From Comamonas odontotermitis (GTDB lineage: Bacteria > Pseudomonadota > Gammaproteobacteria > Burkholderiales > Burkholderiaceae_C): 64,000 nt of DNA. How positions within the stretch are numbered: the first letter of the stretch is position 1; every line of letters begins with the position of its first letter. The stretch is taken from NCBI RefSeq assembly GCF_020080045.1, contig NZ_CP083451.1, positions 2,294,001-2,358,000 on the forward strand, read 5' to 3'. The position numbers and the translations under genes are program-made. Below are positions 20,513-24,992 of this stretch, one piece after another. The notes beneath the pieces are model-generated. The model was not told the origin of the DNA, did no database searches, and was given only the letters and a program-made list of their open reading frames with translations.

Positions 20513-20795
20513 CTCGTTTTCTAGACAAGGCATCGCATCCGGCCACCAGGAAAACCACGGTAGACAGCGCGATCAGGCACGCACCGCCTTTTGCGAAATG
20601 ACCTGCCCCCAGCATCCTTGAACCGCCTGCCAAGGTGACATGACAACCTGTCAAATTAACTTTTCATAATTTGTCAATTCGACATACGTCGTCCACAGGT
20701 ACAAAAAAATATATTCTGATTCAATGAGTTAGTAATTCATGAGTGCATGGCAAGCATTTTGCTTTAAGCCTTGCGAGCACAAGCAATGGCATGAA

Positions 20796-21131
20796 ATGAA
20801 CACCATGATGAATCGACAGTCTTTCGCGCTATGCATCCTGGCATTGTCCAGTGGCGCATGGGCGCAAGCGACAGGCCCTGTGGCCGGGCTGCAGCCAGAT
20901 CGCAGGCCGGACGGCGCACCCCAATTGGCACAAGCCACCTTGACTCCAGAGAAACGAGATCAAGTTCTGCGAGGCATAGAACGTCCAATACCCGGAAATG
21001 TGGAATCCATTGCCACCACAGGCAGTTGGTGGGTTCCTCTTCGGGGCCCGGGCATGACGGGGCCGTATGACCTACGCGGGTGGCACAGCATCACAGCCGC
21101 AGGCGTTCCTGGCTCAGGATCTGCGCGCTGA
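20796..21131 (+). CDS. Small secreted protein of unknown function
   Basis: About 111 residues. The N-terminus MNTMMNRQSFALCILALSSGAWAQA is a Sec signal peptide with an AxA-type cleavage site. The mature part is polar and Pro/Gly-rich, with the segment ESIATTGSWWVPLRGPGMTGPYDLRGWHS. Not recognised. It precedes the Gly-Met-Ser repeat protein and the multiheme cytochrome in the same direction, so it may belong to that electron-transfer cluster. An in-frame extension to 20739 lacks a good ribosome-binding site. Confidence 0.6.
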   Translation: MNTMMNRQSFALCILALSSGAWAQATGPVAGLQPDRRPDGAPQLAQATLTPEKRDQVLRGIERPIPGNVESIATTGSWWVPLRGPGMTGPYDLRGWHSITAAGVPGSGSAR

Positions 21132-21302
21132 GCGCTCTCTCGAATTCAATACCACGTTTTTACCGCCCTCCAGAAACAAGAAATGGAGGCGTTATATCGG
21201 AATCGTCAACACCCCATCAGGGTGGCTGCGATCCTGCCTGCAGGCAGGGGGCGGTGTGCCCCAAAAGTTGTTAGGTCCTCTCTAAGTACGTAAGGAAAAG
21301 CT

Positions 21303-21806
21303 ATGAAAGTTGCTCGCAAAATCCTCGGTCTTTCGGTTACGGCCGTTGCATTGGTCACTGCCTTGCCGGTGACAGCCCAGCAGTCCGGCATGAGTGGTAT
21401 GTCAGGAATGTCAGGCCAGCAAGGCATGAGTGGCATGTCGGGTATGAGTGGCATGTCCGGCCAGCAAGGTATGTCCGGAATGTCGGGCATGAGTGGCATG
21501 TCCGGCCAGCAAGGTATGTCCGGAATGTCGGGCATGAGCGGCATGTCCGGCCAGCAAGGTATGTCCGGAATGTCGGGCATGAGTGGCATGTCCGGCCAGA
21601 AAGGCATGTCAGGTATGAGCGGTATGTCTGGCATGAGTGGCATGTCCGGCCAACAAGGTATGTCCGGAATGAGCGGCATGTCCGGTCGACAGGGCATGAG
21701 TGGTATGTCTGGTATGTCCGGCAACAAAGCCAAGGCAAAAAAAGCCAAAAAGCACAAGGCTAACGGGCAACAAGGCATGAGTGGAATGTCTGGCAACAGT
21801 AAATAA
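21303..21806 (+). CDS. Secreted Gly-Met-Ser tandem-repeat protein
   Basis: 167 residues. A clear Sec signal peptide (MKVARKILGLSVTAVALVTA, then LPVTAQQ) is followed by about 32 Gly-Met-Ser triplets. They are grouped in units of three to five triplets closed by GQQ, GQK, GRQ or GNK; the commonest unit is 15 residues. Near the C-terminus a lysine-rich block (NKAKAKKAKKHKANG) interrupts the repeats before a last GMSGMSGNSK. Roughly one residue in five is Met and there is no Cys. Such composition suggests a disordered periplasmic or surface protein, possibly a Met-thioether metal (Cu(I)) binder or oxidant sink; that is inference. It precedes a multiheme cytochrome gene. The antisense frame is an artefact of the repeat. 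Confidence 0.75.
   Translation: MKVARKILGLSVTAVALVTALPVTAQQSGMSGMSGMSGQQGMSGMSGMSGMSGQQGMSGMSGMSGMSGQQGMSGMSGMSGMSGQQGMSGMSGMSGMSGQKGMSGMSGMSGMSGMSGQQGMSGMSGMSGRQGMSGMSGMSGNKAKAKKAKKHKANGQQGMSGMSGNSK
21395..21725 (+). repeat. In-frame coding tandem repeat, 45-bp main unit
   Basis: Repeats encode Gly-Met-Ser triplets with a Gly-Gln-Gln closing step about every 45 bases. The copies from about 21440 to 21600 are nearly identical at DNA level, so recent unit duplication is likely and length variation between strains is expected. Confidence 0.85.
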
Positions 21807-21898
21807 TTTCCCGTTAATCCTTGAGATTGGTCGCGCGCCAAGGCGCGATCAATCTCAAAAGCAGGCGTCATCTCCATATTGGCGCAAAGGTTCGTGAT

Positions 21899-22795
21899 AT
21901 GTTTCCCAAGAGTGCGTCCATGACTGCCTTATGGCCAAGGCTGTTGCACATTGTTATGGTCAGCGCAACATTAACGCTCGCAATAACAGGCTGCAAAGAA
22001 CATACATCTACTGCTCCGCCCAGCAGCAATAGCAGTGTTGCGAGTTCTTCAAGTCCGTCATCGTCAACCGCCCCTGCCAGCTACCATGCAGCAAAGTATG
22101 ACCCCATTCACTTCAAGCCTGGCATAGACAAGGCAACAGATAAGCAGTGTTTGGCCTGCCATTCTGAAGTACTGAAACCCTCTGTCAAAAAAAGCTCTTC
22201 GGCAGGCATTGAATCCACTGCAGCAACAGCTTGGTACCAGCAGACCTCAACCTATGAAGGTGAACAAGATACCTTTCATCGCCGACATTTGGAAACAGCC
22301 CTGGCGAAAAAACTGATGAATCTGCGTTGCACAACCTGTCACCAAGGCAACGATCCGCGAGATGAGGCCCCCGGAAGTTCAGCAACCGCACAGAGCGATT
22401 TAACACTGCGGAAAATGGTGAACCCAGAAACCACCTGCCTTAAATGCCACGGCAAGCTGAATTGGTCCGTCATGGGACTCCCCGGCCCGTGGGAACAATC
22501 GAAACAGACTTTTCAAAATAACTGCCTGTTATGCCATGCCAATATTCGAACCAATCGGCATCAAGTCAGTTATCTGAATGCAAAGGCCATAGAAGAAATG
22601 GCCGCCAAACCCGATGGTGGCAATGTTTGCTTTGGCTGCCATGGTGGGCGCTCATGGTATCGCACGCACTATCCATACCCAAGACATGCCTGGCCCGGAA
22701 TGGGGACCGATGTACCTGATTGGGCCAAGGACCGCCCTACGGAATCAGAGGTGCGATTTATCACCAATGCCATGGGTCAAGGAGAGAAAAAATGA
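21899..22795 (+). CDS. Pentaheme c-type cytochrome, lipoprotein
   Basis: 298 residues. Five CxxCH heme sites: CLACH 84-88, CTTCH 144-148, CLKCH 180-184, CLLCH 209-213 and CFGCH 244-248. The signal ends in a lipobox (LAITGC, Cys32), so the mature protein should be lipid-anchored; a Ser/Pro-rich linker follows. Many additional His residues could supply the distal heme ligands. The start at 21899 follows AAAGG. The next gene overlaps its stop (ATGA) and encodes a molybdopterin oxidoreductase, so this protein is probably the electron donor or acceptor of that enzyme. Confidence 0.87.
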   Translation: MFPKSASMTALWPRLLHIVMVSATLTLAITGCKEHTSTAPPSSNSSVASSSSPSSSTAPASYHAAKYDPIHFKPGIDKATDKQCLACHSEVLKPSVKKSSSAGIESTAATAWYQQTSTYEGEQDTFHRRHLETALAKKLMNLRCTTCHQGNDPRDEAPGSSATAQSDLTLRKMVNPETTCLKCHGKLNWSVMGLPGPWEQSKQTFQNNCLLCHANIRTNRHQVSYLNAKAIEEMAAKPDGGNVCFGCHGGRSWYRTHYPYPRHAWPGMGTDVPDWAKDRPTESEVRFITNAMGQGEKK

Positions 22796-23070
22796 AAAAT
22801 GAATGGTCTGAAGCGCAATCTCAGGCTCCGGCGCCTGCAGTACGGTTTCCCAGCGTGAGCGACAGCATTGACCCAGCAGGCGGATATAAACGCCGTGATT
22901 TTCTGAAAATTGTTGGTGCAACCACAGGTGCAGCCACTTTAATAAGTGTCGGTATCACGATCAAGCCCGAGGAGGCAAGCGCATTTGCCTACGAGCCCTA
23001 TCTAGGCGACGACCAACTCACAACTGTCGTTACTTCGTGCGCGCACAACTGCGGATCGCGTCATTGTTGA
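22792..23070 (+). pseudogene. Tat-exported molybdopterin oxidoreductase, truncated by IS
   Basis: Only about 90 residues remain. A twin-arginine signal (RRDFLKIVGATTGAATLI, about 33-50) is followed by the start of the mature protein and the [4Fe-4S]-type N-terminal motif TSCAHNCGSR typical of DMSO-reductase-family catalytic subunits. The frame then enters inserted DNA and stops (codons His-Cys-stop at 23062-23070). No continuation of the gene is seen on the other side of the insertion, so an adjacent deletion must have occurred. The enzyme's substrate cannot be told from this fragment. Confidence 0.8.
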
Positions 23071-23093
23071 TTTCCACGCAAACCTGACCCACC
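23065..23093 (+). mobile_element. Possible IS-end remnant
   Basis: TGTTGATTTCCACGCAAAC followed by CTGACCCACC resembles the terminal sequence of IS21-type elements. It lies outside the inverted repeats of the adjacent IS3-family element, hinting at an earlier insertion or a solo end. Low confidence. Confidence 0.3.
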
Positions 23094-24700
23094 GGGGATG
23101 CGGACGAAAACTTGGACTACCAGGAGGTAGTTCATGTATTCCTACGAAGATCGAATCCGAGCCGTTGAGCTCTACATCAAGCTGGGCAAGCGCGTCAGGC
23201 CCACCATCCGGCAGCTGGGCTATCCGACGAAGAATTCTTTGAAGGGTTGGTACAACGAGTACCAACTCAAGCTCGACTTGTCCGCTGGCTACGCAGGCCG
23301 TGAACCGAAGTTCTCGCAGGCGCAGAAGGCCGCAGCCATCGAGCACTACCTCACCCATGACCGATGCATCGCGGCCACCATGAGGGCGCTGGGCTACCCC
23401 GGTCGTGGAACGCTTACCAAATGGGTGCGTGAGGCATTCCCTGAGGCCAGAAGGGCTCTGGTTAGCAGTGTGGGTCAACGAAGGTATCCCGAGAGCTTGA
23501 AGCAAGCGGGAGTCATGGAGCTTTGCACTCGGCAGCAAAGTGCGCAAACAGTGGCTGATAAGTTCGGCGTATGCCGGCCAACGTTGTACAACTGGAAGAA
23601 CCAGCTGCTGGGACGTGAGGCACCCGCATCAATGAAACACACCGATCAATCACCGCAGGAGCGAGAGCGCGAAGAACTCGAGCGCCAGGTTGAGATACTG
23701 CGCCGCGAAGTCAGGCAACTGCGCCTTGAGCAGGACCTCTTGAACAAGGCCAATGAACTGTTAAAAAAAGGTCTGGGCGTCGATCTGCAGCTCCTGTCCA
23801 ACCGGGAGAAGACACTGCTGATTGACGCCCTCAAGGAGCACTACCGCCTGCCAGAGCTCCTCGCACAGTTGGGTCTTGCACGCAGCTCGTACTTCTACCA
23901 TCGGTCCCGCACAGTGGTCGGCGACAAGTACCTTGTGGTGCGCCAGTCCCTTACCGAGATCTTTGAGTCCAACCACCGCTGCTACGGCTACCGCAGGCTG
24001 CAAGCCTCTCTGGCCAGAGAGCAAGGCCCGATCTCCGAGAAAGTGGTGCAGCGGCTGATGAAGCAAGAGAATCTGGTCGTCGCAAAGCCCAAGCGGCGCA
24101 GGTTCGCGTCCTACCTCGGCGAGATCAGCCCGGCACCAGATAACATCATCAACCGTGACTTCCAGGCGGCCACCCCAAATGAAAAGTGGCTCACGGACAT
24201 TACAGAATTCCAGATCCCAGCAGGCAAGGTGTACCTGTCACCCATCATCGATTGCTTCGACGGCATGGTGGTGAGCTGGACCATTGGAACGAGCCCGGAC
24301 GCAGAGCTGGTCAACTCAATGCTGGATGCAGCTATTGAGACAGTGGCAGACACAAGCGATCGTCCAGTGGTCCACTCTGATCGTGGTGGCCACTACCGTT
24401 GGCCAGGCTGGCTCTCTAGGATGAGCGAGGCGAACCTCACCCGCTCGATGTCTCGCAAGGCCTGCTCTCCTGACAACGCGGCTTGCGAAGGCTTCTTCGG
24501 CCGCCTCAAGAACGAGTTGTTCTATCCTCGGGACTGGAAGGGCACGACCATCGAGCAGTTCATTGAGGTGGTCGACTCGTACATCCGCTGGTACAACGAG
24601 AAGCGGATCAAGATATCCCTTGGCTCTCTCAGCCCTGTTGAATACCGGGCGAGCCTTGGACTTGCGGCGTAAACCAGTCCAAGTTTTTATCCGCATCCCC
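23094..24700 (+). mobile_element. IS3-family insertion sequence, about 1.6 kb
   Basis: Bounded by imperfect inverted repeats: GGGGATGCGGACGAAAACTT followed by GGAC at the left, and at the right the complement of GGGGATGCGGATAAAAACTT followed by GGAC. It contains one full-length transposase gene. No target duplication is obvious, which agrees with loss of the flanking Mo-enzyme gene by later deletion. Confidence 0.8.
23134..24672 (+). CDS. IS3-family transposase, single-frame, full length
   Basis: 512 residues. The N-terminal third carries helix-turn-helix domains (IKLGKRVRPTIRQLGYPTKNSLKGWYNE; QTVADKFGVCRPTLYNWKNQ). A Leu-zipper-like coiled coil follows at about 180-215. The integrase core has DDE residues in WLTDITEF, VVHSDRGGHYR and NAACEGFFGRLKNE. 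OrfA and OrfB regions are fused in one frame here, without the programmed frameshift of many IS3 members. A Shine-Dalgarno (AGGAGG) precedes the ATG. It should be an active transposase as far as sequence shows. Confidence 0.9.
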   Translation: MYSYEDRIRAVELYIKLGKRVRPTIRQLGYPTKNSLKGWYNEYQLKLDLSAGYAGREPKFSQAQKAAAIEHYLTHDRCIAATMRALGYPGRGTLTKWVREAFPEARRALVSSVGQRRYPESLKQAGVMELCTRQQSAQTVADKFGVCRPTLYNWKNQLLGREAPASMKHTDQSPQEREREELERQVEILRREVRQLRLEQDLLNKANELLKKGLGVDLQLLSNREKTLLIDALKEHYRLPELLAQLGLARSSYFYHRSRTVVGDKYLVVRQSLTEIFESNHRCYGYRRLQASLAREQGPISEKVVQRLMKQENLVVAKPKRRRFASYLGEISPAPDNIINRDFQAATPNEKWLTDITEFQIPAGKVYLSPIIDCFDGMVVSWTIGTSPDAELVNSMLDAAIETVADTSDRPVVHSDRGGHYRWPGWLSRMSEANLTRSMSRKACSPDNAACEGFFGRLKNELFYPRDWKGTTIEQFIEVVDSYIRWYNEKRIKISLGSLSPVEYRASLGLAA

Positions 24701-24992
24701 TTTCTTCATGTAGAGACTCCGATGGGGGGATTCTCTACTTCTGAGTGGTTCAGGTTTTCAAGGGGACTTCACCAAGTCATACGCACTGATACGCTTGAAT
24801 TCGCTCATTTTGGGCCAGATTTAAGGATGGGGGCAGCAGTGGGCAGCGCAGCACGTAGCTCTGGAGCGGCGCCAGCCTCAGTGCAAAGCTACTCACACGC
24901 GGCTGCAGAGCGAGGTGACTGCCGAGCCAACCTTGCGCGCCTCTGCATCCTTCTTAGCCATGGCTTCAAAAAGAAGCTTCTACCCACAAGAC
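24701..24992. other. Intergenic scar downstream of the IS
   Basis: About 290 bases between the IS and the Lrp-type gene. No supported gene. An imperfect inverted repeat (GTAGAGACTCC / GGATTCTCTAC) at about 24710-24738 may be the end of another element. This is where the rest of the Mo-oxidoreductase would have been. Confidence 0.35.

Follow-up and report, generated by a model that had tools for sequence, protein, structure and literature searches.

A Gly-Met repeat protein family linked to a pentaheme cytochrome and a DMSO-reductase-class molybdoenzyme, with a possible role in methionine redox cycling

Proteins that look exported, that consist largely of Gly-Met-x triplets and to which databases assign no function were found to be near-obligate neighbours of a sharply bounded subfamily of molybdenum (Mo) reductases. 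The window, a stretch of 64,000 nucleotides from Comamonas odontotermitis, holds one gene for such a GM-repeat protein in an operon whose reductase gene is broken. As our tentative reading, held with slightly less than even confidence, we propose that the repeats may act as a periplasmic methionine pool, which is oxidised to the sulfoxide and regenerated by the Mo reductase of the same operon.

The GM-repeat gene (positions 21303 to 21806, + strand) encodes 167 amino acids. A signal-like segment (residues 1 to 26), judged by eye to resemble an export signal, precedes 38 Gly-X-Y triplets that run without interruption from residue 29 to 142, and a single Lys-rich block begins at residue 141. The protein contains 32 GMS and 6 GQQ triplets, which bears out the preliminary description of about 32 GMS triplets, GQQ and one Lys-rich block. 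The GMS triplets are spelled by 14 different codon triplets, and all six Ser codons are present among them, so that the repeat appears to be old and maintained at the protein level; a microsatellite artefact or a fresh expansion was rejected on this basis. The antisense open frame at 21206 to 21877 (− strand, 223 amino acids, rich in Pro, Met and Ile) mirrors the codon pattern of the repeat and for that reason was rejected as a gene.

Searches of Pfam and NCBIfam revealed no described family that fits the GM-repeat protein, save for a compositional match to Pfam Collagen (PF01391; 71 bits, cut-off 27). The NCBIfam adhesin models stayed far under cut-off (63.6 of 325). The MxKDx model TIGR02953, with a family cut-off of 41 bits, gave no match at E up to 0.1 or up to 1, and the GM-repeat protein is not a member of that family. 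Literature searches, mostly at the level of titles, found no paper that names a GM-repeat family, and the matches to GMSGM were unrelated as far as their titles and the opening of their abstracts tell. Within these family and literature searches the repeat family is without a name or an assigned role, in agreement with the earlier statement that the sequence belongs to no described family, the Collagen match excepted.

The operon in the window starts with orf1 (20808 to 21131, + strand), which encodes a small, exported-looking protein of no known family. Its open frame was listed from 20739, and the start was set at MNRQ by alignment. The C-terminus reads PGMxxPYDxRGWH, and the structure model was of low confidence (mean pLDDT 63.6), too poor for a fold search. 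A promoter-like site of the sigma-54 type, TGGCAAGCATTTTGCT, which agrees with the −24/−12 consensus at 10 of 12 positions, lies upstream of orf1 at 20748 to 20763 (+ strand); a promoter and terminator scan gave nothing useful. Directly downstream of the GM-repeat gene is the gene for a pentaheme c-type cytochrome (21899 to 22795, + strand; PF14522, PF03264), with five CxxCH motifs, a lipoprotein-like N-terminus and a lipobox-like ITGC recognised by eye; it is the pentaheme lipoprotein that the preliminary description had noted. It shares 62–69% identity with five relatives in the family, and its structure model (mean pLDDT 52.9) was too poor for a fold search.

The pentaheme gene overlaps by ATGA with a Mo-enzyme gene, of which an N-terminal remnant of 91 codons is left (22792 to 23064, + strand). 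The remnant encodes a Tat signal (RRDFLK) and the start of an Fe-S motif of a DmsA-like Mo reductase, and is 73% identical over 79 amino acids to the enzyme of the relative G067, with similarity from 22831 to 23064. The gene is cut by an IS3-family element (about 23065 to 24701, + strand), whose transposase ORF at 23134 to 24672 matches NF033516 with 404 bits (cut-off 160). The preliminary description had placed the repeat gene beside a Mo-enzyme gene; the start of that gene is present, but only as this remnant. Beyond the element the DNA does not resume the Mo gene, and no obvious target-site duplication was seen; it looks as if the insertion was accompanied by a deletion. Whole-genome searches with a relative's Mo enzyme returned only the remnant and distant paralogues of 31% identity or less elsewhere, and those with a relative's Fe-S subunit returned no close homologue. 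Taking both searches together and leaving the remnant aside, all matches had 28–40% identity, and we read them as other enzymes.

The arrangement of the operon was examined in relatives. The pentaheme was detected in 6 of 399 genomes of the family (E up to 1e-10), and in all six it is immediately preceded by a GM-repeat ORF. In G067, G348 and G115 the order is orf1, GM-repeat protein, pentaheme, Mo reductase, Fe-S subunit, TorD-like chaperone (PF02613 in the G067 protein), a ferredoxin-like protein with Fer4 domains, a histidine kinase containing CxxCH, and an NtrC-type regulator. The CxxCH part of the kinase gave only a sub-threshold match, which was Tll0287-like. The ferredoxin was not seen in the G371 operon, and the contig of G117 ends within the Mo gene. 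A profile search with the pentaheme over species-representative genomes yielded 48 loci from proteobacteria, a sample that overlaps with the family sample (judged by length, L094, L096 and L130 are the contigs of G117, G371 and G115, respectively). The hosts include Ottowia, Azoarcus and Azonexus MAGs, Thiothrix, Thiomargarita, Sedimenticola, Thiorhodococcus, Candidatus Venteria, Azospirillum, Rhodoblastus, Defluviimonas and a Desulfobulbus MAG.

In 45 of the 48 loci, all except L107, L110 and L111, the pentaheme gene is preceded by a GM-repeat ORF under a loose rule of at least three GM dipeptides in a plus-strand ORF up to 2.7 kb upstream. In eight of the 45 the contig begins inside the GM ORF (L087, L097, L103, L105, L112, L118, L119, L127), and that of L118 shows 16 residues. 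With the proteins of G067 and G348 as tblastn queries, the Mo gene was detected in all 48 loci, the Fe-S gene in 43, the TorD-like gene in 42, orf1 in 38, the kinase in 27, the regulator in 26 and the ferredoxin in 22, where many absences reflect the end of the contig or of the fetched flank and some of the matches counted for the regulator and the ferredoxin may be unspecific. Of the 38 loci with an orf1 match, 16 have, in the 350 bases upstream of it, a −24/−12 site with at least 10 of 12 positions of what we take to be the sigma-54 consensus, where base shuffling predicts 0.2; under the same rule no such site was found in the other 22. These putative sigma-54 type sites fit the presence of an NtrC-type regulator in the operon.

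An independent sample of 369 genomes, spread evenly over the class, was also examined. The pentaheme (E up to 1e-20) was present in 15 genomes and a DNA pattern for GMS-GMx-GMx-GM in 17, and both occurred together in 14 (Fisher 1.3e-21, a value that counts related genomes separately and so is not a strict probability). The Mo reductase (E up to 1e-100) was found in 15 genomes, 14 of them with the pentaheme and the 15th (G576) with a GM gene, and the window genome is the only one of the 15 pentaheme genomes without it. As to the exceptions, G478 has the pentaheme without the pattern, with a GM-rich ORF (GMGGMYGMR) upstream. The reverse holds for G576, G682 and G717, which carry the pattern without the pentaheme and have, by eye, kinase- and regulator-like ORFs on the same contig; the GM ORF lies close to the contig edge in G682 and G717, and the Mo gene of G576 is on a different contig. 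G568 has both the pentaheme and the Mo gene, but a GM ORF does not directly precede them; in this genome the pattern is matched by an ORF of 138 residues on a separate contig. The pattern, with TCN serine, replaced GMxGMxGMxGM (143 of 399 genomes), which was dropped as confounded by matches that, in our reading, come from the GGM tails of GroEL and from the tails of Ffh. The count from a protein search in the genus (34 of 53 genomes, E up to 0.001) was not used, because among the 31 genus loci examined, a part of the matches, only the window gene and six multicopper-oxidase-like ORFs had at least four GMxGM steps.

In the sequences sampled, then, the linkage is near-absolute. The redox neighbourhood that the preliminary description had guessed is right, and the link is stronger than could be known there, holding in 45 of 48 operons and in 14 of 15 pentaheme genomes among the 369. 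GM repeats in other proteins are likewise frequently fused to cytochromes. No result demonstrates the extracellular electron transfer that the preliminary description had also considered.

Among solved structures the operon Mo reductase aligns best with DMSO reductases. One of its Ser residues aligns with the Ser of DmsA and with residue 147 of 1eu1, which we take to be the Mo-ligand position. By sequence the enzyme belongs to the DMSO-reductase (S/N-oxide) class. Being of that class, it is not an MsrP/MsrQ-type partner. The best-matching segments in the 48 loci have 71–93% identity to the reference Mo reductase, and the enzymes of eight other loci are 75–80% identical to that of G067 and 36–39% to E. 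coli DmsA. Against TIGR02166 the G067 reductase scored 612.5 bits, below the cut-off of 777.7. In ten of ten operon reductases compared, the window remnant included, His stands in place of the third Cys of the first Fe-S motif (CxxxCxxxH; for example L081:11417-14035), where E. coli DmsA has Cys. Sub-threshold matches to the YnfE (465 bits, cut-off 1675) and YnfF (438 bits, cut-off 1650) selenate/tellurate models could suggest that the enzyme reduces selenate or tellurate and that the Met-rich protein coats the resulting particles. We regard this as very improbable, since a DMSO reductase model matches equally (DmsA, 456 bits, cut-off 1600) and there is no other pointer to selenium or tellurium.

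The composition of the repeat was then evaluated over 45 GM ORFs, whose repeat regions, bounded by GM and taken from related sequences, describe the family rather than test it. They comprise 6896 residues, of which 26% are Met. Nearly all Met residues (1768 of 1797) are preceded by Gly, and the spacing between them is mostly 3 (1466) and 6 (217). The second residue in 1973 GxxG units is Met in 1698, Gln in 203, Gly in 60, Val in 4, Leu in 3, Asn in 3, Glu in 1 and Tyr in 1, and never Ile. Met is followed by Ser (1094), Gly (379), Asn (129), Glu (47), Ala (45), Gln (29) and others. Both TCN and AGY codons encode Ser in the repeats. Since Met almost never gives way to Leu, Ile or Val while the neighbouring residues and the codons drift, the thioether looks to be under selection. 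The length of the chain varies widely between relatives, and the repeat region of L101 has 104 Met. The longer GM proteins (L083/L096, L101, L106, L108, L109, L113, L119, L122, L123, L125) carry interspersed modules, for example WVCTQW or YFKITPxGxIFFYP, between repeat tracts.

The 38 strict Gly-X-Y triplets and the Pfam match of the window protein would be expected of a collagen-like, triple-helical structural protein. That reading is hardly credible for the family, in which Pro is rare (61 of 6896 residues) and several relatives break register; the longest strict Gly-X-Y runs are 4–5 in L105, L114, L118 and L120, L105 and L118 being cut by the contig start. Of three relatives scanned for Pfam Collagen, L091 passes the cut-off, L115 stays below it with 19.8 bits, and L123 has no match.

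Multicopper-oxidase-like ORFs of the genus and the family carry GMS/GMT/GMA/GMQ repeats, in variable number, within a Met-rich insert (loci L006, L009, L013, L015, L028, L031, L066, L069, L070 and L074; Cu-oxidase domains were confirmed for L006). Metal binding had been suggested in the preliminary description too. A periplasmic buffer for the soft metals Cu(I) and Ag(I), in which MxxMxxM thioethers serve as a copper store or protect the cytochromes and the Mo reductase, would account for such repeats inside multicopper oxidases of six genomes of the window genus and of further family members, and Met-only Cu(I) sites are known. We nevertheless consider a metal buffer unlikely. His and Cys number only 31 and 22 among the 6896 repeat residues, inspection of the neighbour ORFs by eye revealed no copper gene, and the constant partner is the reductase and not a copper protein.

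A protein search gave 149 matches, and the 120 listed comprise unnamed proteins and GM fusions, among them fusions to NapC/NirT tetrahemes (P0011, P0022), to monoheme cytochromes c and to DsrE-like domains. As judged from these sequences, the GM module recurs in exported proteins, mostly redox ones where a domain was recognised. The DsrE-domain proteins P0004, P0050, P0081, P0100 and P0101 have N-terminal GM repeats, and an EF-hand protein (L168:1483-1839, − strand) has a GM(S/D/E/K) tail. The fusions to tetraheme and monoheme cytochromes would suit an adhesive, low-complexity Gly-Met tether, possibly sensitive to oxidation, that gathers the pentaheme, the reductase and other cytochromes in the periplasm as a scaffold or a condensate, with Met oxidation as the switch of assembly. 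In the same direction, a monoheme gene in the operon of L103 is 51–65% identical to 7 of 13 GM-fused haem domains compared, an oxidation-switched assembly is described for the Met-rich region of yeast Pbp1 in PMC8394241, and PMC12571646 describes Gly/Met GroEL tails that populate polyproline II helix. The variable chain length and the three operons without a GM ORF argue against a scaffold, which appears rather unlikely.

We prefer the methionine pool to these alternatives. A methionine-based redox role had been suggested in the preliminary description, and it is judged the best reading here, with support from the linkage to a redox operon. The GM repeats would form a flexible, methionine-dense chain, which we infer to be exported, and the thioethers of the repeat would react with oxidants, whichever of these act in the periplasm, to give methionine sulfoxide (MetO). 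In relatives, the second gene downstream of the repeat gene encodes the Mo reductase of the S/N-oxide class, which would take the repeat as its substrate and reduce its MetO back. The electrons may pass from the quinol pool through the pentaheme lipoprotein and the Fe-S subunit to the Mo reductase. Such cycling is favoured because the enzyme is of the right class, with precedents in DorA, BisA and DmsABC, and because of the parallel with MrpX/BcrX-MsrPQ. According to PMC7402097, free and protein-bound MetO are reduced by DorA to a similar extent, and of two peptides compared, GAGM(O)Q is a roughly three-fold better substrate than GYM(O)E. BisA is reported to repair protein MetO, and its loss to cause oxidant sensitivity (PMC10653797). 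E. coli DmsABC is reported to reduce MetO, and dmsA to be induced by hypochlorite and peroxide (PMC12096835). For MrpX/BcrX-MsrPQ, PMC8315932 describes a Met-rich peptide paired with a Mo MetO reductase and a proposed MetO cycling.

Several observations count against the cycle or limit its scope. The operon enzyme reads SYAG at the position of the SYGW motif of DorA-type enzymes, which PMC7402097 calls necessary for sulfoxide reduction by them; E. coli DmsA likewise has no SYGW. In the window genome both the GM gene and the pentaheme gene have outlasted the reductase, and the cycle is probably not running there because the reductase is truncated. The loci L107, L110 and L111, which have the reductase without a GM ORF, and G568, which has none directly upstream, suggest that the reductase can work without the GM protein. 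Because repeats are found in multicopper oxidases and in the EF-hand protein too, the GM module does not appear to be tied to the operon enzyme alone. In our literature searches no DmsA-like enzyme was met with for which a methionine-rich substrate is named. In a bolder version, which we consider quite unlikely, the natural substrate of the reductase would be its own co-encoded protein, with the GM-repeat protein serving as a respiratory methionine capacitor or as a redox-switched condensate that holds cytochromes. As a capacitor, up to about 100 MetO per chain would be a stored, non-diffusible electron acceptor, and the pentaheme-Mo reductase would be respiratory.

Should the repeat protein serve the reductase as substrate or redox buffer, the DMSO substrate assumed for such enzymes would be wrong. 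The dmsAB genes of Candidatus Venteria, for example, are read as DMSO respiration in PMC5728499; its genome is among the 48 loci, and the dmsAB genes of that paper are possibly not identical to those of the operon. The methionine pool would also represent the MrpX/MsrP idea realised a second time, independently and by unrelated proteins. Among the record titles, Ottowia, Azospirillum and Thiothrix are culturable hosts with the operon, which is intact in Ottowia beijingensis (L089) and in Azospirillum (L115/L116).

A second, unrelated Met-rich cassette is present in the window genome. It encodes an MxKDx protein (G000:C1:1599096-1599305; with flanks, L208:1447-3188) that matches TIGR02953 with 110.6 bits, above the cut-off of 41, and beside its gene are a cytochrome b561 ORF and an Oxidored_molyb ORF, which among the NCBIfam models comes closest to MsrP (66 bits, cut-off 207).

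Compared with known systems, the Pfam Collagen proteins and collagen-like adhesins share Gly at every third residue with the window protein, which is above the Pfam cut-off, but the latter has Met in the X position and almost no Pro, and the match is not constant in its relatives. Gly-Met tracts of period 3 are also seen in the Met-rich region of CopA-like multicopper oxidases and in the tail of GroEL, which is a cytoplasmic GGM tail; in those proteins, however, they are short and lie inside other proteins. DmsAB/YnfE (TIGR02166) resembles the operon in its Tat signal, Fe-S motif, Mo and DmsB-like Fe-S subunits and TorD-like chaperone. The operon enzyme, in contrast, scores under the cut-off, is of low identity to E. 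coli DmsA and has His in the Fe-S motif; the operon adds a pentaheme lipoprotein, and no DmsC was recognised by eye in the neighbourhoods viewed. The MtsZ/TorZ system of Haemophilus likewise pairs a Mo S-oxide reductase with a pentaheme partner; it is not known to have an Fe-S subunit, and we know of no GM-repeat protein that belongs to it. The title of PMC5122715 calls MtsZ a methionine sulfoxide reductase. The MrpX/BcrX-MsrPQ (YedYZ) system differs from the operon in having an MxKDx repeat instead of GM-x, with no sequence match between them, MsrP instead of a DMSO-reductase-class enzyme, a cytochrome b instead of a pentaheme, and ECF instead of NtrC-type regulation. What the two share is an exported repeat protein, short and rich in Met, whose gene accompanies those of a haem protein and a periplasmic Mo oxidoreductase, together with a proposed MetO cycling.
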